Source of the DNA: Candidatus Proelusimicrobium bovinum
GTDB lineage: Bacteria; Elusimicrobiota; Elusimicrobia; Elusimicrobiales; Elusimicrobiaceae
Assembly (NCBI GenBank): GCA_902791965.1
Contig: CADAXZ010000005.1
Location: forward strand, 1 to 32,656
DNA length: 32,656 nucleotides
Direction of reading: 5' to 3'
Shown: one piece after another, positions 7,488 to 24,778 of the stretch
How the letters are laid out: every line of letters starts with the position of its first letter
Numbering within the stretch: position 1 is the first letter of the stretch
Position numbers and translations under genes: made by a program
The notes under the pieces: model-generated
What the model was told of the DNA's origin: nothing
Database searches by the model: none
What the model saw: the letters and a program-made list of their open reading frames with translations, nothing else

Positions 7488-10400
7488 CTAAAACTGTATT
7501 GTCAGCATAGTACCTATATTATAGGCGGTATAAGAATCTTCCTTAATATAAAGATGTTTAAAATTTTGGAAAGCGCCGGAAAGCGTAAGACGCATATTTT
7601 TGGAAATTTCATAATCCAAACTTGTGGAAAAATCTACCAAATCTCGGTTTTCTTCTATCGTATAAGAACGGCGGCGGGAATAACTTGCCGTAGTGTTCCA
7701 AATTACGCGGTTAGTCATCAAATAATTAGCACCGAAAAGCGGCAGGCGGAAACTGAAAGGTAAATTAAAGTCCACTCTTACATTTAAACTCGGCACGATT
7801 TCTTTAACATCATTTACTAATATATTGCCGACTTCAGTACTGCGGTCGTAAATATAATTTATTTTAGGGGTAAAACGGAAAGCCTTATGCGTAAAAGATG
7901 TCTGCGCGGAAAAATCCCTGCGCTCATAAAAAGCCAACTGCCTGTCTACAAGCAAATCTGTTTTATTTTGCTGCTGTTCGTTATAAGTTAAAGTAGTATC
8001 AAAATAATTAAACAGCACAAAGCGGAAATCCCCGCCGTAAGCAGTATCTTCCTTATAATCCTTGCCTAATGTTTCATTAGTGGAAAGGCTGTATTTAAGT
8101 TTTAAATTTACGCCGGAAACATATTTAGTAGAACTGCTGAAGAACTTTTCAAGTTCATCAATATAAAACACTACATCGGGTAAAGTTGATGTTATTGTTT
8201 TATAGCGCGAGCCTAAATCTTCGTTAGTTTGATAACTGCGCGTAAAATTATTGATTACCGATATAGTTTTTAAAGGCGCGGCCGCACCGGTAAATTGGTA
8301 TTCTTTAAACGGATTCCAACGCATAGCGGCGCTGTAAGTATCACGCATTGTAAGGCTGCTCCTGTAAGCATAAGGGGAATTGATACCCATAGAACTGCGT
8401 AGCCAAAGTTTATCTAAAGTTTCAAAACCGTCCGGTACATATTCCCAAGCGTCGCCGTCTTGTATTCTGTAAGAGCCGGAAATACTGAAAGCAGAAAGAA
8501 TTTTTGCTTTGGGCAGCATATCCCTTCCGTTTAACGCAAGAGAGATATTCCCCTCCGAACTTCTGTTAAGGCTTTTTACATCACCTATATCAAATGTATA
8601 AGTAGTATCGCCTATTTTGCTGGATGCGGCGCTTAAATTATTGTTTTCCTTAATATTTACGCTATAACTTGCCGTAGGTGCAAGCCAAGGCTTTATCCTT
8701 AAGACGGTGCTTAAAGCCGCCGTTTCCGATGCGTATTTGCTGTATTTTTTGTTGCGGAATGCTTCCACGCCGACGGAAGCATCATAATAACGGCGTTTTT
8801 CATCTGCACTTGTAAGGCTGTAAGAAGGTACTATGGAAGTCCCCTGCCAAGGAGAAAGCGTCATCTTAAAATTATAATTTTGTATAGTGGTATCACTGTT
8901 GTAAGAAGATCCTTGCGCCGCTATTAACTGTTTATCGCTGTAATCTATCCTGTTTTTAACAAGGGAAGTACCGGCAGATAAACTGCGCAGGATATTATCT
9001 TTCTTTTTTGCGGTGTGGTTAAGCGTCAGTGCATAAGTGCGGTTTGCATCTTCCCTTTGCAAGAGTTGGTAATCGGCATTTTCAAAACTGTAAGACGCAC
9101 CGATATTGGGGATTTTCTGCCCCGTATATTCCGCCTTTATTGTTCCTTTATCTCTGTTTACTTCCCCTTTATCTAACAGGCTTACGGTATTACTGCTGTT
9201 ATATCCCAAAACATCAGGCGTTAAAGTATTGGAACGGTAATAATTGGCATTTATCGGTAAATCTTTAATGCGCTTAAATTTAAGGTAATAATCTTCCTGT
9301 CTGTTTTTTTGGTTTGTCGCTACGGCAACAGGTGTTTGGAAGTTCTCATCCATATAAGTTATTTTGCCGCCGGCATCAAACCAATTATCCACACGCACCT
9401 GTGCCTGCCCCATATAAGCATTGCCTATTGTTACCATAGAATCAGCAAGGAAAACATCATCAACCCAAACTTCCCCTTGCGGGCTGCTGCCGTCAGGTTT
9501 AATAAGCCCCGCCTGCACTATACCAACGCGCTTATAATTAAGCATACCTTCGCTTACGACAGTTGCGCCGTATTTTGAAATGTTTTCCCATCTGTCGGGG
9601 ATATTGTCGCCGTTTGTATCAATAAGTTTAAGGCTGTAAAGATGCCAAGCATCTTTAAAATCAAGCGGGATACGGATTTCGCTGTAATTATTTTCATCGG
9701 CTGCAATACGCAGGAAGAACTGTGTATCCGCATCAATATTGCCGTTATTGTAAAGCAAAAAGCGGAACTGCCTGTGTTTGGAAAAATCCATCGAACTGAA
9801 GTTCCTCTGCACAGATACCCTGCTTAAGGCCGGATTCTTTGCAAAGTCATACATAAGTGCCAAAGATTGTTCTTCAACATTATTAGTGCCGTCGTCTTTT
9901 TTCATATCATTAACAGAGCCATACAAAGTACGGAATACTTCGCCGCCGTCGCCGTTATCGGCAAAGATAGGCTTATAATTTACATTATCAACATTGTTTA
10001 TGCCATAACTTAAAAGTACTTCCTCGTTAGTATCCAAAGGCTGCCAAATACTACCAGAAACACCCAAAGCCGCTATTTTTATCTGCCCTTTAAGTTTGCC
10101 TGCAGGATTCTTTTTTAAAGTAATGCGCATTTGCTGAACAGAAGTCCAATCCGTACCCCAAGGGTTCGTGGAAGAAGCAAAATCCACCTCCTGATTAAAG
10201 GTTTTCCACCCTGTATAATTTATAAGTCCGCCGGGTAAACCGTGGATTTCTTCCCCCGCAAAACCGAAGTTCCCTCCCGAGGTTAAATCGGCAGAATCTA
10301 AAAGCCCGTTTCCGTTTAAATCCTGTGTATCAATTTCCCCGTTAGGCTGTGGAAAGGGATTATAAACATTGTTTACAAAAGGATTATAACGCTGGTAAGT

Positions 10401-12911
10401 ATTATCGGGGTTTATGTAAATCCAGCCAACATCTTCCGTACTTGTAAGCCTGCCGGTGCAGCGTAAATCTTCCGTTTTGGGAACGCTGTTCATACCCGCC
10501 ACATAATATTTACTGCAAGTAGGCAAGATTTCATCAAGCCTTAAACCTTGGGCTACTAAAGAGGGATAAGCAATATAATTATCGCTCATTTCATTCATAG
10601 TGCCGAAGGAAATATTTATATAAGGCCCGTTTTCTTCCCCCTGCATTGTAAGTTCAAAGAGTGTTTTTTCGGAAAAATCAACTCCGGCATTACTAACAGG
10701 GAAAACTATTGAAACTTCATCTCTGTCGGCAAAACCTTTATCCTGCGCTATACTGAAATCATAATCAATTATTAAAACATTTTGTTTATCATCGCCGTTG
10801 GCTATTGCCGCCGGATTGATTTGAAGCATAGGCACATCCTGCGAATCCCATTTAATTGCATCAAAAAAGTTAGTACCGGCGGTAGGGTTAGAGGCTATTT
10901 TCCAATCCTTATAAATGGTAGAGGCTTTAATATATTCCTTTGTTTCTTCCATACTGTCAATCATAGCGTAGCCAAAAAGGTTTTCGTCTTTTTTACTTTG
11001 GGCCGCTTCCGCCCCTAAGGTTAAATGTACGCCTTCTGCCACTTGAACATCATTTACTTTAAAATCGGCTTCCATAGCAGTAAGGCTGCTGGTAGTCGCA
11101 CCTACGCTCGGCACGCGTTTAGGCTCGCTGCCTGATTCATTAAGCAAAGTTGCACCCACGGAAATTTTATCGGTAAAATCATAATTAAAACGCCCGCCCA
11201 TAAGCGCGCTGTCATCACTTGTACCCGCAACATCATAAGTAATATCAACCACGCTGTTAGAGCCTATTAAATCGGAATTATAAAATGTTATAAAGCCGGA
11301 AGAATAATCCACATAGTAATCTTTATTGCGCTGCATTGTAGCACCGTTTACTTTAACCTTTTCCGACTGGACAACTATATCAGGCTCTAAAAAGTAAGTT
11401 TTGACGGTGGAAGTGTACTGCACAAAAAAGTACCTGTTAGTGGAAGAAACCGGCGTAGAATTATAAAGCCCTACATCAGCAAAACGCCCTGCTATCCTAA
11501 ATGTACCTTTATCGTAATCCACTAAAAATTGGCAGAACGGGCGGGTATCATTTACGGAGCAGACCTCAGAGCCGTCAGACTCCAAAAGTTTTAAAATAAA
11601 ATTACCGCTTCCGTCATCACGCGTAATTTGTGTCGCGCCGATACTATAATAGCGTTTTATTTCTAATTGGTAGCCGAGTTCCGCAGAGGATGATATAGGC
11701 CTGTCATTATTGGTCTTTATTATTATCGGGTAGCCGTCAGGCTGGGCAGAACTTGCCCAAACGCCTTGGCTGTTTTGATAATCAACCGCAACTACATCCG
11801 TCGCGCTTAAAGCAGTATTAAAGATAAGTATATTTTGGTTGTAATCTATCGTATAATCAACACCGCGCGTAAGCAACCTGAAAGCCGCCGTAGCGCCGTT
11901 ATCGGGGTAAACTGCCCCCGTTTTTATATCTACTGCTTTGGATGCTACCTGATAACCGCCGTTAGTATGGTCATCTATATAAACCTTTTCCGTTCCGCTG
12001 CGGATGGCATAAGTCCAAGTTGTATCAGCAGAAGCCCCCGTCTGATAACCGAAAGTTAAATCATAATATTTCCGGCGCATATATTGCAAATCGCGGATAT
12101 TTACCGTTTCAAACACACTATCGCCCTTAAATTGTTTGCTTTTGCTCTCCCCTTTGTTTTGGCTGCCTATAAGCCTTAAGTGGGCATCTTTATATTGCAG
12201 GTGCATTTTAGCACCGAATACCTGCTTACTGTAAGAGATAAATTCCGAGCCTGGCAAAGAAAGTTCTATATCCCCGAAGTCCGCACTTTGCACAATTTCC
12301 CCCGCTTTGCCGCGGTACGATACCCCTATATTTTGGGCATCTTCGCGTTGGTCGTCATAGTCAATATCAACAAAAATCCTGTCGCTTATTTTACCTTGGA
12401 TTTTAAGTTGCATTTCCTGCTCAAACTGCATACTGCTTGTGTTGCGGTCATCAACGGTACTTTTACTGGCTTTGTATTTTTTTACATCATACTTTATGCC
12501 GAAAGTTTTACGCCCCGTCATTGAAATTGTCGTCCCGTAAATAGGCAAAAGCAGCGACGGATTTAAAATTTCCATATATTGGGTTGCCTGCTCTTTTATT
12601 TCTATTCCGCCTTCCATACCTTGTATTACATTTTCCAGATATGCGCGGTCATATTTAAAATATTCTTCTTCACCTTCTGTATCTTCATCCGAAGGCGGCA
12701 ACAATAAAGGTTTATCTTCTTTTAAGAATCCGTAGCGGGCAGGCTCAAAAAGTTTAAAACGGGAAGTATCTTTAAGAACGGAGTTTTCAAAAGTTTGTTC
12801 TTCCTTATTTTCAGGCCGCGCGGCAAGTTCTCCCGCGGCAAATACCTCGGAAGTAAAACAGTTTAAGCATAAATACAAGCCCAAAATAAGCCTTAAAATT
12901 TTATTAAGCAC
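7488..12911 (-). CDS. SprA-like giant outer-membrane beta-barrel protein
   Basis: This resembles SprA, the very large outer-membrane translocon of the Bacteroidota type IX secretion system. The start is set at the GTG at 12911, giving 1807 residues: GAGG lies 5 bases upstream and a clear signal peptide follows (LNKILRLILGLYLCLNCF, cleavage after VFA). An in-frame ATG at 12962 lies inside a terminator-like hairpin and would spoil the signal peptide. SprA-like stretches occur at about residues 150-290 (KISDRIFVDIDYDD, FGDIELSLPGSEF, SKQVFGAKMHLQYKD). A calcium-loop-like DLNGNGLLDSAD lies near 860, DTNGDNIPDRWE near 1100, and WVDDVFLAD afterwards. Many alternating beta strands follow, and the chain ends in TIQF, a barrel-assembly signal. 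It is shorter than typical SprA (over 2300). Exact role unknown. Confidence 0.82.
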   Translation of the reverse strand: MLNKILRLILGLYLCLNCFTSEVFAAGELAARPENKEEQTFENSVLKDTSRFKLFEPARYGFLKEDKPLLLPPSDEDTEGEEEYFKYDRAYLENVIQGMEGGIEIKEQATQYMEILNPSLLLPIYGTTISMTGRKTFGIKYDVKKYKASKSTVDDRNTSSMQFEQEMQLKIQGKISDRIFVDIDYDDQREDAQNIGVSYRGKAGEIVQSADFGDIELSLPGSEFISYSKQVFGAKMHLQYKDAHLRLIGSQNKGESKSKQFKGDSVFETVNIRDLQYMRRKYYDLTFGYQTGASADTTWTYAIRSGTEKVYIDDHTNGGYQVASKAVDIKTGAVYPDNGATAAFRLLTRGVDYTIDYNQNILIFNTALSATDVVAVDYQNSQGVWASSAQPDGYPIIIKTNNDRPISSSAELGYQLEIKRYYSIGATQITRDDGSGNFILKLLESDGSEVCSVNDTRPFCQFLVDYDKGTFRIAGRFADVGLYNSTPVSSTNRYFFVQYTSTVKTYFLEPDIVVQSEKVKVNGATMQRNKDYYVDYSSGFITFYNSDLIGSNSVVDITYDVAGTSDDSALMGGRFNYDFTDKISVGATLLNESGSEPKRVPSVGATTSSLTAMEADFKVNDVQVAEGVHLTLGAEAAQSKKDENLFGYAMIDSMEETKEYIKASTIYKDWKIASNPTAGTNFFDAIKWDSQDVPMLQINPAAIANGDDKQNVLIIDYDFSIAQDKGFADRDEVSIVFPVSNAGVDFSEKTLFELTMQGEENGPYINISFGTMNEMSDNYIAYPSLVAQGLRLDEILPTCSKYYVAGMNSVPKTEDLRCTGRLTSTEDVGWIYINPDNTYQRYNPFVNNVYNPFPQPNGEIDTQDLNGNGLLDSADLTSGGNFGFAGEEIHGLPGGLINYTGWKTFNQEVDFASSTNPWGTDWTSVQQMRITLKKNPAGKLKGQIKIAALGVSGSIWQPLDTNEEVLLSYGINNVDNVNYKPIFADNGDGGEVFRTLYGSVNDMKKDDGTNNVEEQSLALMYDFAKNPALSRVSVQRNFSSMDFSKHRQFRFLLYNNGNIDADTQFFLRIAADENNYSEIRIPLDFKDAWHLYSLKLIDTNGDNIPDRWENISKYGATVVSEGMLNYKRVGIVQAGLIKPDGSSPQGEVWVDDVFLADSMVTIGNAYMGQAQVRVDNWFDAGGKITYMDENFQTPVAVATNQKNRQEDYYLKFKRIKDLPINANYYRSNTLTPDVLGYNSSNTVSLLDKGEVNRDKGTIKAEYTGQKIPNIGASYSFENADYQLLQREDANRTYALTLNHTAKKKDNILRSLSAGTSLVKNRIDYSDKQLIAAQGSSYNSDTTIQNYNFKMTLSPWQGTSIVPSYSLTSADEKRRYYDASVGVEAFRNKKYSKYASETAALSTVLRIKPWLAPTASYSVNIKENNNLSAASSKIGDTTYTFDIGDVKSLNRSSEGNISLALNGRDMLPKAKILSAFSISGSYRIQDGDAWEYVPDGFETLDKLWLRSSMGINSPYAYRSSLTMRDTYSAAMRWNPFKEYQFTGAAAPLKTISVINNFTRSYQTNEDLGSRYKTITSTLPDVVFYIDELEKFFSSSTKYVSGVNLKLKYSLSTNETLGKDYKEDTAYGGDFRFVLFNYFDTTLTYNEQQQNKTDLLVDRQLAFYERRDFSAQTSFTHKAFRFTPKINYIYDRSTEVGNILVNDVKEIVPSLNVRVDFNLPFSFRLPLFGANYLMTNRVIWNTTASYSRRRSYTIEENRDLVDFSTSLDYEISKNMRLTLSGAFQNFKHLYIKEDSYTAYNIGTMLTIQF

Positions 12912-12934
12912 ATAATCCTCTATTTTAATTCTAT

Positions 12935-12978
12935 AAAAAATAGCGTGTAAATGTATAAACATAATACATTTACACGCT
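12935..12978 (-). terminator. Terminator-like hairpin between lptG and the SprA-like gene
   Basis: A perfect 15-bp inverted repeat (12942-12956 and 12964-12978, 7-base loop) is followed on the minus strand by six T (complement of A 12935-12940). It has the form of a Rho-independent terminator for lptF-lptG, placed 24-31 bases before the GTG of the SprA-like gene. It may partly uncouple expression of the two. Confidence 0.82.
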
Positions 12979-20241: not shown

Positions 20242-21432
20242 ATGGATTTAAAAAAATATGCCGATGTTATGATTTTTGCCTTAAAATCAGCAAGAAAAGG
20301 CGGTAAATTTAAAAAAGGGGAAAATATTCTTGTAAGTTATGATATGCCTGCCCTTGCTCTTGCCGAAGAAATTTACGCCAAACTTACCGAGCAGGGGTTT
20401 AATACAGTTGTCCGTCCTTATGCAACGGAAAAAATGGCAAAAATCCTTTACACAAAAGGCAGTGATAGCCAAATTAAATTCACTCCGGTATGGGAAAAGG
20501 TCTTTACCGAAAATTTAAACGGGCTTATTGCCTTGCGCGCTCCCCAAAATTTAGCCAATTTAAAAGATGTTGACCCTAAAAAAATAGCCCTTGCAACCTT
20601 AGCACGCAAACCTATACGCGAAATTATGGACGAAAGAGAAGAAAAGGGCTTATTCTCTTGGACTTTGGCTAATTACCCTACCCAAGGCCTTGCAAAACAG
20701 GCTGGTTTAAGCCTTAAACAATATGAAGCACAAATAGCAAAAGCCTGCTTTCTTAATGAAAAAGATCCCGCCAAAAAATTTGCGGAAGTTACCGCCCAAA
20801 TCAATGAAGTTTCCAAACGCCTTTCCGCCCTGCCCATAGTAAAGTTAAGAACGCAATCTGAAAGTATGGATTTGGAAATTCTGCTCGGCGAAAAGCGCCG
20901 TTTCATAAGCGGCGGCGGATGCAATGTACCTTCTTTTGAAATTTTTACTTCCCCCGACTGGCGCGGCACACGCGGAATTTACTTCAGCGATTTAATGAGT
21001 TTCAGAAACGGCAATTATGTAAAAGATATTAAACTGGAATTTAAAGCAGGGCGTGTTATAAAAGCGACTGCCCGTCAAGGAGAAGCCTTCCTTAAAAAAA
21101 TGCTTTCTTTAGATAAGGGTGCTTGCCAAATAGGGGAATATTCCCTTACGGATACTCGCTTTTCCAAAATAGACCGCTTTATGGCTGATACATTATATGA
21201 TGAGAACTTCGGCGGGGCTTACGGCAACAGCCATATCGCTTTGGGCGCAAGTTATAGCGACACTTTCAGCGGTAAACCGTCCGAACTTAATAAAAAACTG
21301 AAAAAGGACCTCGGTTTTAATGAGTCCGCTTTGCATTGGGATTTGGTAAATACGCAAAATAAACTTGTTACTGCAACCCTAAAAAACGGAAAACATATAA
21401 CAATTTATGAAAAAGGCCGTTTTTTGGTCTGA
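20242..21432 (+). CDS. M29-family metallo-aminopeptidase
   Basis: A 396-residue thermophilic-type (M29; AmpS/aminopeptidase T) metallo-aminopeptidase, a cytoplasmic dimer that trims N-terminal residues from peptides using a two-metal centre. The expected ligands are in place: Glu233 in PSFEIFTSPD, Glu299 in CQIGEYSL, His331 in NSHIALG, and His365 and Asp367 in ALHWDLV. The N-terminal domain is the usual substrate-gating region. The start has AAGGAGAG at about 20229-20236. The 248 bases upstream of it separate it from rluD and hold a TATAAT at 20106-20111, though no convincing -35 was seen. Confidence 0.9.
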   Translation: MDLKKYADVMIFALKSARKGGKFKKGENILVSYDMPALALAEEIYAKLTEQGFNTVVRPYATEKMAKILYTKGSDSQIKFTPVWEKVFTENLNGLIALRAPQNLANLKDVDPKKIALATLARKPIREIMDEREEKGLFSWTLANYPTQGLAKQAGLSLKQYEAQIAKACFLNEKDPAKKFAEVTAQINEVSKRLSALPIVKLRTQSESMDLEILLGEKRRFISGGGCNVPSFEIFTSPDWRGTRGIYFSDLMSFRNGNYVKDIKLEFKAGRVIKATARQGEAFLKKMLSLDKGACQIGEYSLTDTRFSKIDRFMADTLYDENFGGAYGNSHIALGASYSDTFSGKPSELNKKLKKDLGFNESALHWDLVNTQNKLVTATLKNGKHITIYEKGRFLV

Positions 21433-21728
21433 TTACGAAAAAAAAGATCTTAAAAATACCCTAAAAACATTAAGATATTAACAATTATCCACAGTATAAG
21501 ACCTGTGGATAATTTGTGTATTTTACGACGGAAAAACCCTTACCGTAAAACTTATAAAATCTTATTTCCAGACGGAATTTGAAATATTTTTGCAACTTAT
21601 GTAAAATTTGTTTTAAGAACAGTAAAAAAAAGGCCCTAAAGGCCTTATAAGTATGATTTAAGACGGTAAAACTATAAACTTTTATCCACAACATACACCG
21701 CTGTTTAAAACCTAACCGAGGAAACAAT
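21433..21728 (+). promoter_or_regulatory. Upstream region of nrdD with three perfect DnaA boxes
   Basis: This 296-base AT-rich stretch has no gene. It contains three exact matches to the DnaA box TTATCCACA: 21485-21493 (plus), 21504-21512 (minus) and 21682-21690 (plus). The first two form a perfect 12-bp inverted repeat (21483-21494 / 21503-21514) around an 8-base spacer. A hairpin with T run on the minus strand lies at 21624-21646. Short related words containing GACGG followed by A/T-rich DNA recur near 21526, 21575 and 21662. The layout suggests DnaA-responsive control of nrdD; binding is inferred only from sequence. Confidence 0.7.
21624..21646 (-). terminator. Terminator-like hairpin on the minus strand upstream of nrdD
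   Basis: AAGGCC (21630-21635) and GGCCTT (21641-21646) form a 6-bp stem with a 5-base loop. On the minus strand it is followed by eight T. No minus-strand gene ends here, so it may block antisense transcription or end an unseen small RNA. Confidence 0.5.
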
Positions 21729-23789
21729 ATGGCAAGTAATGAGATTTTGTTGACAATCATCAAAAGAGATGGTTCAACGCAGGCTTTTGATTCAAAAAAG
21801 ATAACAAATGCTATTTTTAAAGCGGGCCAATCCACTAACGAATTTGATATGGATACCGCAAAAAAATTGACGATAAGAGTAGTAAATATTTTACAGCAAC
21901 TCTATTCGGAAATTACCCCCAGCGTAGAAAATATACAAGATGTTGTGGAAGATGTACTGTTAACATCAAATTACCATAAAACCGCAAAAGCCTATATTCT
22001 ATACAGAGACCAAAGAGCAAGAGTAAGGGAAATTTCTTCTAAATTCAATGTGGAATTAGTTGACCAATACCTTCAAAAAATTGACTGGCAGGTAAACGAG
22101 AACAGCAATATGGGCTATTCCCTGCAAGGTTTAAACAACTATGTTTCATCTGAAATTACAAAGATTTACTGGCTTAACAAAATTTATCCGGAAAATGTCA
22201 AAAAAATGCATACTTCCGGTGATATTCACTTGCACGATTTAGGCCTTTTGGGTGCTTACTGCGTAGGTTGGGATTTACAGGATTTGCTTATAAGCGGTTT
22301 TAAAGGCGTTGCAGGAAAAGCAGAAAGCAAACCGGCAAAACATTTAAGAACTGCTTTAGGGCAAGTGGTAAACTTCTTTTATACGCTGCAAGGAGAAAGT
22401 GCAGGGGCGCAGGCCTTTTCCAATTTTGATACTTTACTTGCTCCGTTTATCTATTATGACCATCTTACTTATGATGAAGTCAAACAAGCCCTGCAGGAGT
22501 TTTTATTTAATGTCAATGTACCTACCAGGGTAGGCTTCCAGACACCTTTTACCAATATAACTTTGGATTTTAATGTCCCGTCTTACTACAAAGACCAGGG
22601 CGTTATTATCGGCGGGGAAATTAAAGACAGAAAATACGGGGAATTCCAAAAAGAAATGGACCTTTTTAATAAAGCATTTTTGGAACTTATGCTTGAAGGG
22701 GACGCCAAAGGCCGCGTATTTACTTTCCCTATCCCTACTTATAACATTACAAAGGATTTTGACTGGGATAATCCGTCATACCAGCCGCTTTGGGATATTA
22801 CGGCTAAATACGGTATCCCTTACTTTGCGAACTTTGTCAATTCCGATATGAATCCGGAAGATGCCCGTTCTATGTGTTGCCGCTTAAGAATAGACAACCG
22901 CGAACTTAACCGCAGGGGCGGCGGGCTTTTCGGCTCTGCCCCGCTTACTGGTTCTATCGGTGTAGTAACTATAAATATGCCCCGTATAGGTTATTTGGCA
23001 TCCTCTGAAGATGAATTCTTCAAATTGCTTGAAGACCGTATGCAGGTTGCCAAATTAAGCCTTGAAATTAAACGCAAAGTAATTGAAAGATTTACCAATG
23101 CAAATCTCTATCCTTATATGAGTTTCTATTTAAGGAGCGTAAAACAGCGCTTTAACGAATATTGGAAAAATCATTTTTCCACTATCGGCTTAGTCGGTTT
23201 AAATGAAGCCTGCCTTAACCTTATGGGCGAAAGCGTAGGAACTGAAAAAGGACGGAAATTTGCAGTAAAGGTAATGGATTTTATGAGGGCCAAACTCGTA
23301 GAATTCCAAAAAGAAACCGGCAACAATTACAATTTGGAAGCCACTCCGGCGGAAGGCACATCCTACCGTTTAGCACGCCTTGACAGGGAAAAATACCCCG
23401 ATATTATCGTAGCCGATAATGAACAGGCAGAGCAAGGCAGGCCGCCTTTTTACACGAACTCCAGCCAGTTGCCGGTAAACTATACCGACGATATATTTGA
23501 ACTTTTAGACTTACAGGATGAAATACAGGCAAAATATACCGGCGGAACAGTACTGCATATTTTTATGGGCGAAAGGATAAAAGACACCGCCGCCCTTAAA
23601 AAATTCATCAAGAAAGTATGCGAAGGCTACCAACTTCCGTATTTCTCTATAACACCCACCTTCAGCGTTTGCCCCAAATGCGGATATATAGAAGGCGAGC
23701 ATTTTGAATGTCCTAAATGCAAAGCGGAAAAAATAGAAAATATTGAAAAACAGATTGCTCTATTGGAAGAACAACTATACAGTAAATAA
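21729..23789 (+). CDS. nrdD: Class III anaerobic ribonucleotide reductase, main subunit without glycyl-radical domain
   Basis: NrdD reduces ribonucleotides to deoxyribonucleotides under anoxia. The 686-residue chain has an N-terminal ATP-cone (about 1-95), then the ten-stranded barrel with Cys178 in LLGAYCVGWD, Cys383-Cys384 in SMCCRLRI, GGGLFGSAPLTGSIGVV and the ESVGTEKGRKFA block. It ends with the zinc-binding Cys648/651 and Cys661/664 (VCPKCGY, ECPKC). The chain then ends with a 22-residue helix-prone tail (IENIEKQIALLEEQL). The C-terminal RVxGY glycyl-radical loop found in ordinary NrdD is absent. That missing piece is encoded by the next ORF at 23905. The enzyme is therefore predicted to need both polypeptides. 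Stops in the following bases rule out simple readthrough. Confidence 0.96.
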   Translation: MASNEILLTIIKRDGSTQAFDSKKITNAIFKAGQSTNEFDMDTAKKLTIRVVNILQQLYSEITPSVENIQDVVEDVLLTSNYHKTAKAYILYRDQRARVREISSKFNVELVDQYLQKIDWQVNENSNMGYSLQGLNNYVSSEITKIYWLNKIYPENVKKMHTSGDIHLHDLGLLGAYCVGWDLQDLLISGFKGVAGKAESKPAKHLRTALGQVVNFFYTLQGESAGAQAFSNFDTLLAPFIYYDHLTYDEVKQALQEFLFNVNVPTRVGFQTPFTNITLDFNVPSYYKDQGVIIGGEIKDRKYGEFQKEMDLFNKAFLELMLEGDAKGRVFTFPIPTYNITKDFDWDNPSYQPLWDITAKYGIPYFANFVNSDMNPEDARSMCCRLRIDNRELNRRGGGLFGSAPLTGSIGVVTINMPRIGYLASSEDEFFKLLEDRMQVAKLSLEIKRKVIERFTNANLYPYMSFYLRSVKQRFNEYWKNHFSTIGLVGLNEACLNLMGESVGTEKGRKFAVKVMDFMRAKLVEFQKETGNNYNLEATPAEGTSYRLARLDREKYPDIIVADNEQAEQGRPPFYTNSSQLPVNYTDDIFELLDLQDEIQAKYTGGTVLHIFMGERIKDTAALKKFIKKVCEGYQLPYFSITPTFSVCPKCGYIEGEHFECPKCKAEKIENIEKQIALLEEQLYSK

Positions 23790-23904: not shown

Positions 23905-24099
23905 ATGACAACGCAAGAAAGACACAATATAGAAACAAGAATTTCCGAACTTAAGGCAGCAAAAGCGGCCGTCAAAGGTACGAACTGCGAAGTTTATTCA
24001 AGAGTAGTCGGTTATCTTCGCCCAGTACAAAACTGGAACAAAGGCAAGAAAGAAGAATTTGCAATGCGCAAAAATATTAAAATATCCTGCGGTTGTTAG
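23905..24099 (+). CDS. Stand-alone glycyl-radical domain of anaerobic ribonucleotide reductase
   Basis: A 64-residue protein that is the missing C-terminus of NrdD. After a short helix (NIETRISELKAAKAAV) it carries CEVYSRVVGYLRPVQNWN and GKKEEF, the glycyl-radical loop of class III reductases, with the radical-bearing residue predicted as Gly36. The start at 23905 is set by AGGAGG 8 bases upstream; an in-frame ATG at 23842 has no such site and would add 21 unrelated residues. It ends in Ser-Cys-Gly-Cys, an unusual tail for this domain. It lies between nrdD and the activase gene. It is comparable in concept to GrcA/YfiD, which replaces the radical domain of damaged pyruvate formate-lyase, but here the partner has no radical site of its own. 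Confidence 0.92.
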   Translation: MTTQERHNIETRISELKAAKAAVKGTNCEVYSRVVGYLRPVQNWNKGKKEEFAMRKNIKISCGC

Positions 24100-24163: not shown

Positions 24164-24778
24164 GTGAAGATTAGCGGACTTTTAAAATTTTCTATGATAG
24201 ATTTTCCGGGCAGTATTTCAGCAATAGTATTTACACAAGGTTGTAATGTGCGTTGTGCATATTGCCATAATCCGGAACTTATACCGCCCGCCCAGAATGA
24301 AGAATACGCCCTTAGCGAAGAAGAAGTACTTGAATATCTTGAAAGACGCAAACATTCTTTAGACGGCGTGGTAATAACCGGCGGAGAACCTACACTGCAA
24401 AAAGATTTAGATAAATTTGCTTTGACCCTTAAATCCATGGGATATATGGTTAAATTAGATACCAACGGTACAAATCCGGAAATGGTACAAAAACTCATAG
24501 ATAAAAAACTTGTGGATTTTATCGCTATGGACATAAAAGCCCCGTTTGAAAAATATGAAGCAATATGCGGCCCGATAGACATAGAAAAAGTAAAGCAGAC
24601 TATGCAGATTATTTTATCTTCCGGTATAAATTACCAGTTCCGTACAACTTATTACAAAGAAATCCTTAATGATAATGATATAGAAGCAATAAAGGCTATG
24701 TTGCCTGATGTTTCTAAATTTAAACTGCAGGAATGTTTACCCGTAAAGCAAAAAGATGTCCTTAAAATAGAACATTAA
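24164..24778 (+). CDS. nrdG: Radical-SAM activase of anaerobic ribonucleotide reductase (NrdG2-type)
   Basis: A 204-residue radical-SAM enzyme that would use a [4Fe-4S] cluster and S-adenosylmethionine to make the glycyl radical. The cluster motif CNVRCAYC (Cys27, Cys31, Cys34) follows the family opening GLLKFSMIDFPG. VVITGGEPTLQ is the SAM-contacting GGEP motif, and LDTNGTNP and DIKAP follow. The overall type is the NrdG2-like activating protein rather than the short E. coli NrdG. The start is a GTG at 24164 with GAGGCAGGT upstream. It directly follows the stand-alone glycyl-radical protein, its presumed substrate. Confidence 0.93.
   Translation: MKISGLLKFSMIDFPGSISAIVFTQGCNVRCAYCHNPELIPPAQNEEYALSEEEVLEYLERRKHSLDGVVITGGEPTLQKDLDKFALTLKSMGYMVKLDTNGTNPEMVQKLIDKKLVDFIAMDIKAPFEKYEAICGPIDIEKVKQTMQIILSSGINYQFRTTYYKEILNDNDIEAIKAMLPDVSKFKLQECLPVKQKDVLKIEH

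Follow-up and report, generated by a model that had tools for sequence, protein, structure and literature searches.

In Escherichia coli, DnaA prefers tandem boxes that lie 2 to 3 bp apart, and ChIP-seq has detected its binding upstream of both nrdD and nrdA (PMC11317965). The nrdDG site is a tandem double box, TTAAGAACAggTTATCCACA, whose occupancy has been shown (PMC11317965), and tandem boxes also precede nrdAB, the class I operon with a DnaA-regulated promoter (PMC11317965, Table 1). DnaA boxes can be coupled to transcription termination as well: DnaA roadblock termination at E. coli asnC and guaB is among the earlier work cited in PMC11317965, and a DnaA-dependent his attenuation has been proposed (PMC10989985). 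A different arrangement is found with NrdR and the NrdR boxes, where one regulator serves different classes of ribonucleotide reductase (RNR). To our knowledge, the link between dNTP synthesis and replication is understood in only a few models.

The window analyzed here is a stretch of 32,656 nucleotides from Candidatus Proelusimicrobium bovinum. It represents contig 5 of a genome assembled into 135 contigs with a total of 1.51 Mb, whose nearest named relatives are MAGs of Elusimicrobiaceae and Elusimicrobiales, with gut samples being common among them. As in the E. coli nrdDG operon, DnaA boxes are found 5' of the class III RNR operon. However, instead of a tandem double box with demonstrated occupancy, this locus contains a convergent palindrome with a 19-bp register, embedded in a terminator-like hairpin and identified by sequence comparison. 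With nrdAB, it shares the location of DnaA boxes 5' of RNR genes and the probable link of dNTP supply to replication, except that nrdAB is a class I operon, whereas the enzyme here belongs to class III and, in relatives, to class II.

It is likely that this palindrome makes the nrdD-(glycyl-radical ORF)-nrdG operon responsive to DnaA. The original prediction, that DnaA controls dNTP synthesis for the class III enzyme in this organism, is well supported, still as a prediction, by the invariance of the DnaA-contacted positions, the recurrence of the box pair at nrdJ, and the normal DNA-binding domain of the DnaA encoded in this genome. Since ChIP-seq has already established that DnaA of E. coli binds at nrdD and nrdA, this idea is not new in kind. 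What is new is the convergent rather than tandem geometry, its apparent use at two classes of RNR in a lineage that lacks NrdR, and the apparent dual constraint of box and hairpin. The open-licence papers searched describe neither a convergent pair embedded in a hairpin, nor its use at RNR classes III and II, nor its presence in an Elusimicrobiota genus that lacks NrdR. Here, a deep-branching phylum with no detectable NrdR seems to have reached the E. coli solution, DnaA at RNR promoters, with another site geometry and with two RNR classes, and the supply of DNA precursors is probably tied to replication in this genus of gut bacteria, as it is in E. coli. The palindrome would also be a case of one sequence that meets the constraints of protein binding and of an RNA hairpin, and it supplies specific, testable DNA sequences.

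The box pair and its conservation

Three exact copies of TTATCCACA, the 9-mer of the DnaA consensus, are found within 206 bp in the nrdD upstream region. Box 1 (positions 21485 to 21493, plus strand) and box 2 (21504 to 21512, minus strand) are the left and right arms of a convergent pair with a start-to-start distance of 19 bp. The proximal box (21682 to 21690, plus strand) lies in the predicted 5' leader. Boxes 1 and 2 are part of a perfect inverted repeat with 12-bp arms (21483 to 21494 and 21503 to 21514) and an 8-base spacer.

The window contains 5 copies of TTATCCACA against 0.2 expected, a number that is reached in none of 100 shuffles; the two remaining copies (at 9385 and 14596) are within coding sequence. 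Across the whole genome, the 9-mer shows no enrichment, with 23 copies in 1.51 Mb and likewise 23 copies of the reversed control 9-mer. Fourteen of the 23 are in coding sequence and 9 are intergenic, and 7 of these 9 fall into two clusters, 3 at nrdD and 4 on contig C67. The cluster upstream of nrdD is not a chance occurrence. A spaced palindrome of the form TCCACA-N5-14-TGTGGA is found only once in the genome of the window species. A plasmid search with the nrdD upstream region produced no match.

The original prediction had placed the three boxes and the inverted repeat correctly. It had also proposed a genome-wide count, in which the 9-mer itself turned out to be unenriched, whereas its intergenic clustering is marked. 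The two observations that it named as contrary evidence are not seen: the box is not common at random intergenic sites, the palindrome being rare elsewhere, and the repeat is conserved within the genus, even though it is absent from sister genera.

Specifically, the palindrome is found 5' of nrdD in 16 of the 16 genus genomes in which that region is assembled. In 15 of these, nrdD is in place; in G016, where the contig ends, the assignment is based on promoter motifs. G012 (upstream region missing) and G004 (no nrdD) are outside this set, and several of the compared genomes are fragmented MAGs. The upstream alignment of the 16 genomes has 348 columns with a mean column identity of 53%, and invariant runs of more than 2 columns occur in it only at the two box cores, TCCACA and TGTGGA. 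Positions 2 and 4 to 9 of both boxes are invariant, and positions 1, 3, and 10 vary. In this alignment, the boundary between invariant and variable positions in the palindrome matches the limits of the DnaA box, and the pattern indicates purifying selection on the box positions, tied to the RNR gene.

The start-to-start distance of the pair is 19 bp in most genomes, 20 bp in G001, G007, G011, and G017, and 18 bp in G009. The pattern TCCACA-N5-14-TGTGGA is present in every genus genome, mostly in a single copy. The gene located 5' of nrdD varies (an M29 peptidase, a PhoH-like protein, a 250-aa protein, or another one), while the palindrome is constant. The 21682 box is found at the same position only in five species, namely, the window species and G001, G007, G011, and G017. 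A tandem box, TTAT[AG]CACA, located 2 bp before the left arm, is found only in G002, G003, and G010, and a minus-strand TGTTGATAA, TGTGGACAA, or TGTGGATAA is found ~36 bp downstream of the palindrome in most species. The tandem double box with 2- to 3-bp spacing, the E. coli mode, which a DnaA site need not follow, is absent from this window. The additional boxes around the palindrome, among them the tandem one at a 2-bp distance in G002, G003, and G010, agree with the known preference of DnaA (PMC11317965).

Within the family, the palindrome appears to be genus-specific. None of the examined nrdD upstream regions of genus g6 contains it. Each of 13 g6 genomes has one or two chance-like matches to TCCACA-N5-14-TGTGGA, none of them in an nrdD upstream region examined, and these were rejected as the same element. 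Because the palindrome is missing from other genera of the family, nrdD has no general need of it; its absence from the sister genera suggests either a gain within the genus or a loss elsewhere. Several g6 nrdD genes (L040 to L047) have, in place of DnaA boxes, an AT-rich palindrome, TTATTAGTAATAATTACTATTAAG, that overlaps a TTGACA-type promoter. Two palindromes of G004 were also rejected as nrdD elements: one on contig C18, which resembles palindromes of G002 and G003, does not lie at nrdD, and the other, on C23 (L281), belongs to an unrelated terminator between other genes. The stem of the latter contains GGTCCACAG/CTGTGGACC, an example of how chance can produce a stem with TCCACA.

The predicted nrdD promoter (21579 to 21607, plus strand) consists of a TTGAAA -35 element, a 17-bp spacer, and a TAAAAT -10 element with an upstream TATG, and it matches the consensus at 10 of 12 positions; a TTATGnTAnAAT-like -10 is conserved in the 16 genus genomes. 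With the start site inferred near 21614, the convergent pair is centered ~115 bp upstream of it, beyond the core promoter, and the 21682 box lies ~70 nt past it. The same region contains two CG(A/T)CG-like elements ~45 bp apart: CGACG (21526 to 21530, plus strand), with its positions 1, 2, and 4 (C, G, and C) invariant in the 16 genomes, and GACGG (21571 to 21575, plus strand), just 5' of the -35 element, with an invariant CG in the 16 genomes. By eye, similar elements are found in genus g6. The two elements of the window are a possible site of another nrdD regulator.

The inverted repeat as a predicted hairpin

The inverted repeat is also a predicted terminator-like hairpin (21483 to 21514, plus strand), with a 12-bp stem, an 8-nt loop, and a T-rich tract behind it (21515 to 21524, plus strand), a role that was overlooked in the original prediction. 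Its predicted RNA fold has a free energy of -16.1 kcal/mol and a z score of -3.2. Seven of the 12 stem pairs (box positions 2 and 4 to 9) are unvarying; the 5 variable ones all co-vary, with zero one-sided changes. In the stem, 97.9% of the alignment cells are paired, versus 31 to 47% with the partner slid, and the arm states TTA, TTG, CTG, ATA, and CTA correspond to at least 4 symmetric changes on the NrdD tree (counted by eye). The 12 bases after the box include 7 to 9 T in 16 of 16 species, the T tail of the window species being weak (TGTGTATTTT). The stop codon of the codirectional gene is always 25 to 57 bp before the palindrome; in the window, the gene that the hairpin would terminate encodes an M29 aminopeptidase (20242 to 21432, plus strand; Pfam Peptidase_M29, 1.4e-102). 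A stem-loop and a T-rich tract, as in intrinsic terminators, are thus both found here, along with compensatory pairing.

All these features, as well as the existence of the unrelated G004 terminator with a TCCACA stem, would also suit a palindrome whose sole role is the intrinsic termination of upstream transcription and whose likeness to DnaA boxes is accidental. That reading is quite improbable, given that a terminator needs no invariant TnTCCACA in both arms in species with saturated flanks, that the core is constant while the upstream gene changes, that further boxes, single or in tandem, are found beside the palindrome, and that the box pairs at nrdJ in G009 and G015 have mismatched arms. 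Independent DnaA boxes need no symmetric arms and a terminator needs no invariant DnaA cores, so both constraints seem to act on the palindrome. Alternatively, the arm symmetry could be the work of template switching that corrects inverted repeats, in which case no selection for an RNA structure would be needed. The TTG and CTG arms may be weak DnaA sites.

Candidate binding proteins and recurrence at nrdJ

The DnaA protein encoded in this genome contains domains I, III, and IV, the last of which belongs to PF08299 (1.3e-28); in phmmer searches, the protein matches the solved structure of domain IV of E. coli DnaA (1J1V). In most genus genomes, the related 9-mers TTATCAACA, CTATCCACA, TTATACACA, and TTATCCACA are found where the GC skew switches, in the ~100 bp that follow dnaA. 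A second PF00308 protein does not contain PF08299 and was rejected as the box binder. Most genus genomes encode a long proline-rich protein (L098, L091) with a DnaA-type ATPase and no DnaA DNA-binding domain. Unlike the systems under NrdR control, all 18 genus genomes are without detectable NrdR, the two weak matches being the ATP cone of NrdD itself, and NrdR was therefore rejected as the regulator.

Class II RNR is present in 4 relatives, and the one member that was tested exceeds the cut-off for NrdJ (TIGR02504). In the three of them with an assembled nrdJ upstream region, a convergent box pair in the same 19-bp register is found 92 to 133 bp upstream of nrdJ: TTATCCACA-N10-TGTGGATAA in G012, TTATCCACA-N10-TGTTGATAA in G009, and TTATCAACA-N10-TGTGGATAA in G015. 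In the 1.5-Mb genome of G001, a pair spaced at 18 to 20 bp, with at most one mismatch per box, is found once, at nrdD. As nrdJ is unrelated to nrdD and lies at another locus, its box pair provides an independent line of evidence that such pairs belong to RNR control. The arms at nrdJ in G009 and G015 are incompletely complementary, so the hairpin cannot be the main constraint there.

That the element accompanies two RNR classes, in a genus lacking NrdR, that its register is near-constant, and that its arms change symmetrically, as in a dimer site, might point to a dedicated dimeric RNR regulator that has replaced NrdR, with the DnaA-box likeness due to coincidence or descent. However, the register varies from 18 to 20 bp, the half-sites are the DnaA consensus, and the same 9-mer is found, single or in tandem, at nrdD, near dnaA, and in the C67 cluster; with no candidate protein found, such a regulator is unlikely. 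Some features count against DnaA, too: the convergent pair, with its 10-bp gap, differs from the tandem geometry preferred in E. coli, and arm positions 1 and 3 change symmetrically, which is not required of independent boxes.

With DnaA as the preferred binder, the protein, probably in the ATP form that accumulates before initiation, would bind the convergent pair and adjust transcription from the promoter at 21579 to 21607, so that dNTP supply would follow replication. With the boxes located 5' of the core promoter, activation or conditional modulation would fit better than simple promoter occlusion. Judging from the co-variation, the same inverted repeat would close the upstream transcription unit as an RNA hairpin, and DnaA binding and termination insulation would share one sequence. 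At the 21682 box of the window species and its four close relatives, bound DnaA could hinder elongation, acting as negative feedback or a roadblock. DnaA occupancy, the sign of the regulation, and termination in vivo at nrdD are what we infer here. The DnaA roadblocks at asnC and guaB and the his attenuation likewise couple DnaA boxes to transcription termination, but here the two boxes themselves form the predicted hairpin stem. A bolder and more tentative version has DnaA as a shared regulator of RNR classes III and II in this NrdR-less genus, acting through a convergent pair of boxes whose palindrome also serves as a terminator, so that DnaA occupancy would also decide how far transcription of the upstream gene reads through into nrdD.

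Origin, titration sites, and the RNR genes

Perfect DnaA boxes, several of them in one AT-rich intergenic stretch, might also be part of a replication origin, an option that the original prediction proposed to exclude by GC skew. The exclusion was borne out in the relative G001, whose kilobase coordinates refer to its own genome, of a species other than that of the window. The cumulative GC-skew minimum of G001 is at ~350 kb on C1, beside dnaA (352.6 kb), and its nrdD is at 573.8 kb, ~220 kb from dnaA, where the skew is mostly positive and does not change sign. With no dnaA, dnaN, or gyrase genes found among the window genes scanned, the chance that this region is part of an origin is negligible.

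A conserved intergenic cluster of 4 to 6 DnaA boxes (++---) is found in G000, the genome of the window species, on contig C67 (10543 to 10818; L009) and in G001 at C2:588709-588993. The four-box C67 cluster was rejected as oriC, since its G001 equivalent (C2:588.7 kb) has no skew switch, whereas dnaA has one. Located away from the GC-skew origin, this type of cluster is a candidate datA/DARS-like titration site. G001 has only two dense box clusters, and the nrdD site, being one of them, might itself be a datA- or DARS-like site of DnaA titration or nucleotide exchange that merely adjoins nrdD. This is very improbable, as the pair recurs at another locus, nrdJ, the palindrome stays with nrdD when the neighbors change, and the larger cluster of 5 to 6 boxes elsewhere is a better titration candidate.

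The nrdD gene (21729 to 23789, plus strand; Pfam NRDD, 4.7e-191) encodes the catalytic part of class III RNR, with the ATP cone, the catalytic domain, and Cys4, and its product scores above the cut-offs for NCBIfam NF006126 and TIGR02487. This 686-aa ORF ends after the Cys4 zinc site, without the glycyl-radical segment. The glycyl-radical motif RVVGYLRPVQNWN is found in a separate 64-aa ORF (23905 to 24099, plus strand; Pfam NRDD positions 532 to 560), which is located between nrdD and nrdG and has its own ribosome site. It is followed by the nrdG-type radical-SAM activase NrdG2 (24164 to 24778, plus strand; Pfam Radical_SAM; TIGR02495, 217.5 bits with a cut-off of 131). Elsewhere in the window, a 1824-aa ORF (7488 to 12962, minus strand) has no Pfam match at 0.001. 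Unlike the rest of the genus, the genome of the window species also encodes class I RNR (the C-terminal part of nrdA, and nrdB; L186, contig C63, 2 to 2099), the upstream region of nrdA lying beyond the end of that contig.

The split nrdD is found in 72 of 80 loci from relatives (Elusimicrobiaceae and Endomicrobium; mostly L102 to L175), and 6 loci, the majority of them in other phyla, have a fused gene. The literature searched yielded no account of a class III RNR in split form, and this split is possibly more surprising than the DnaA boxes. The new ends at the split look like short helices.
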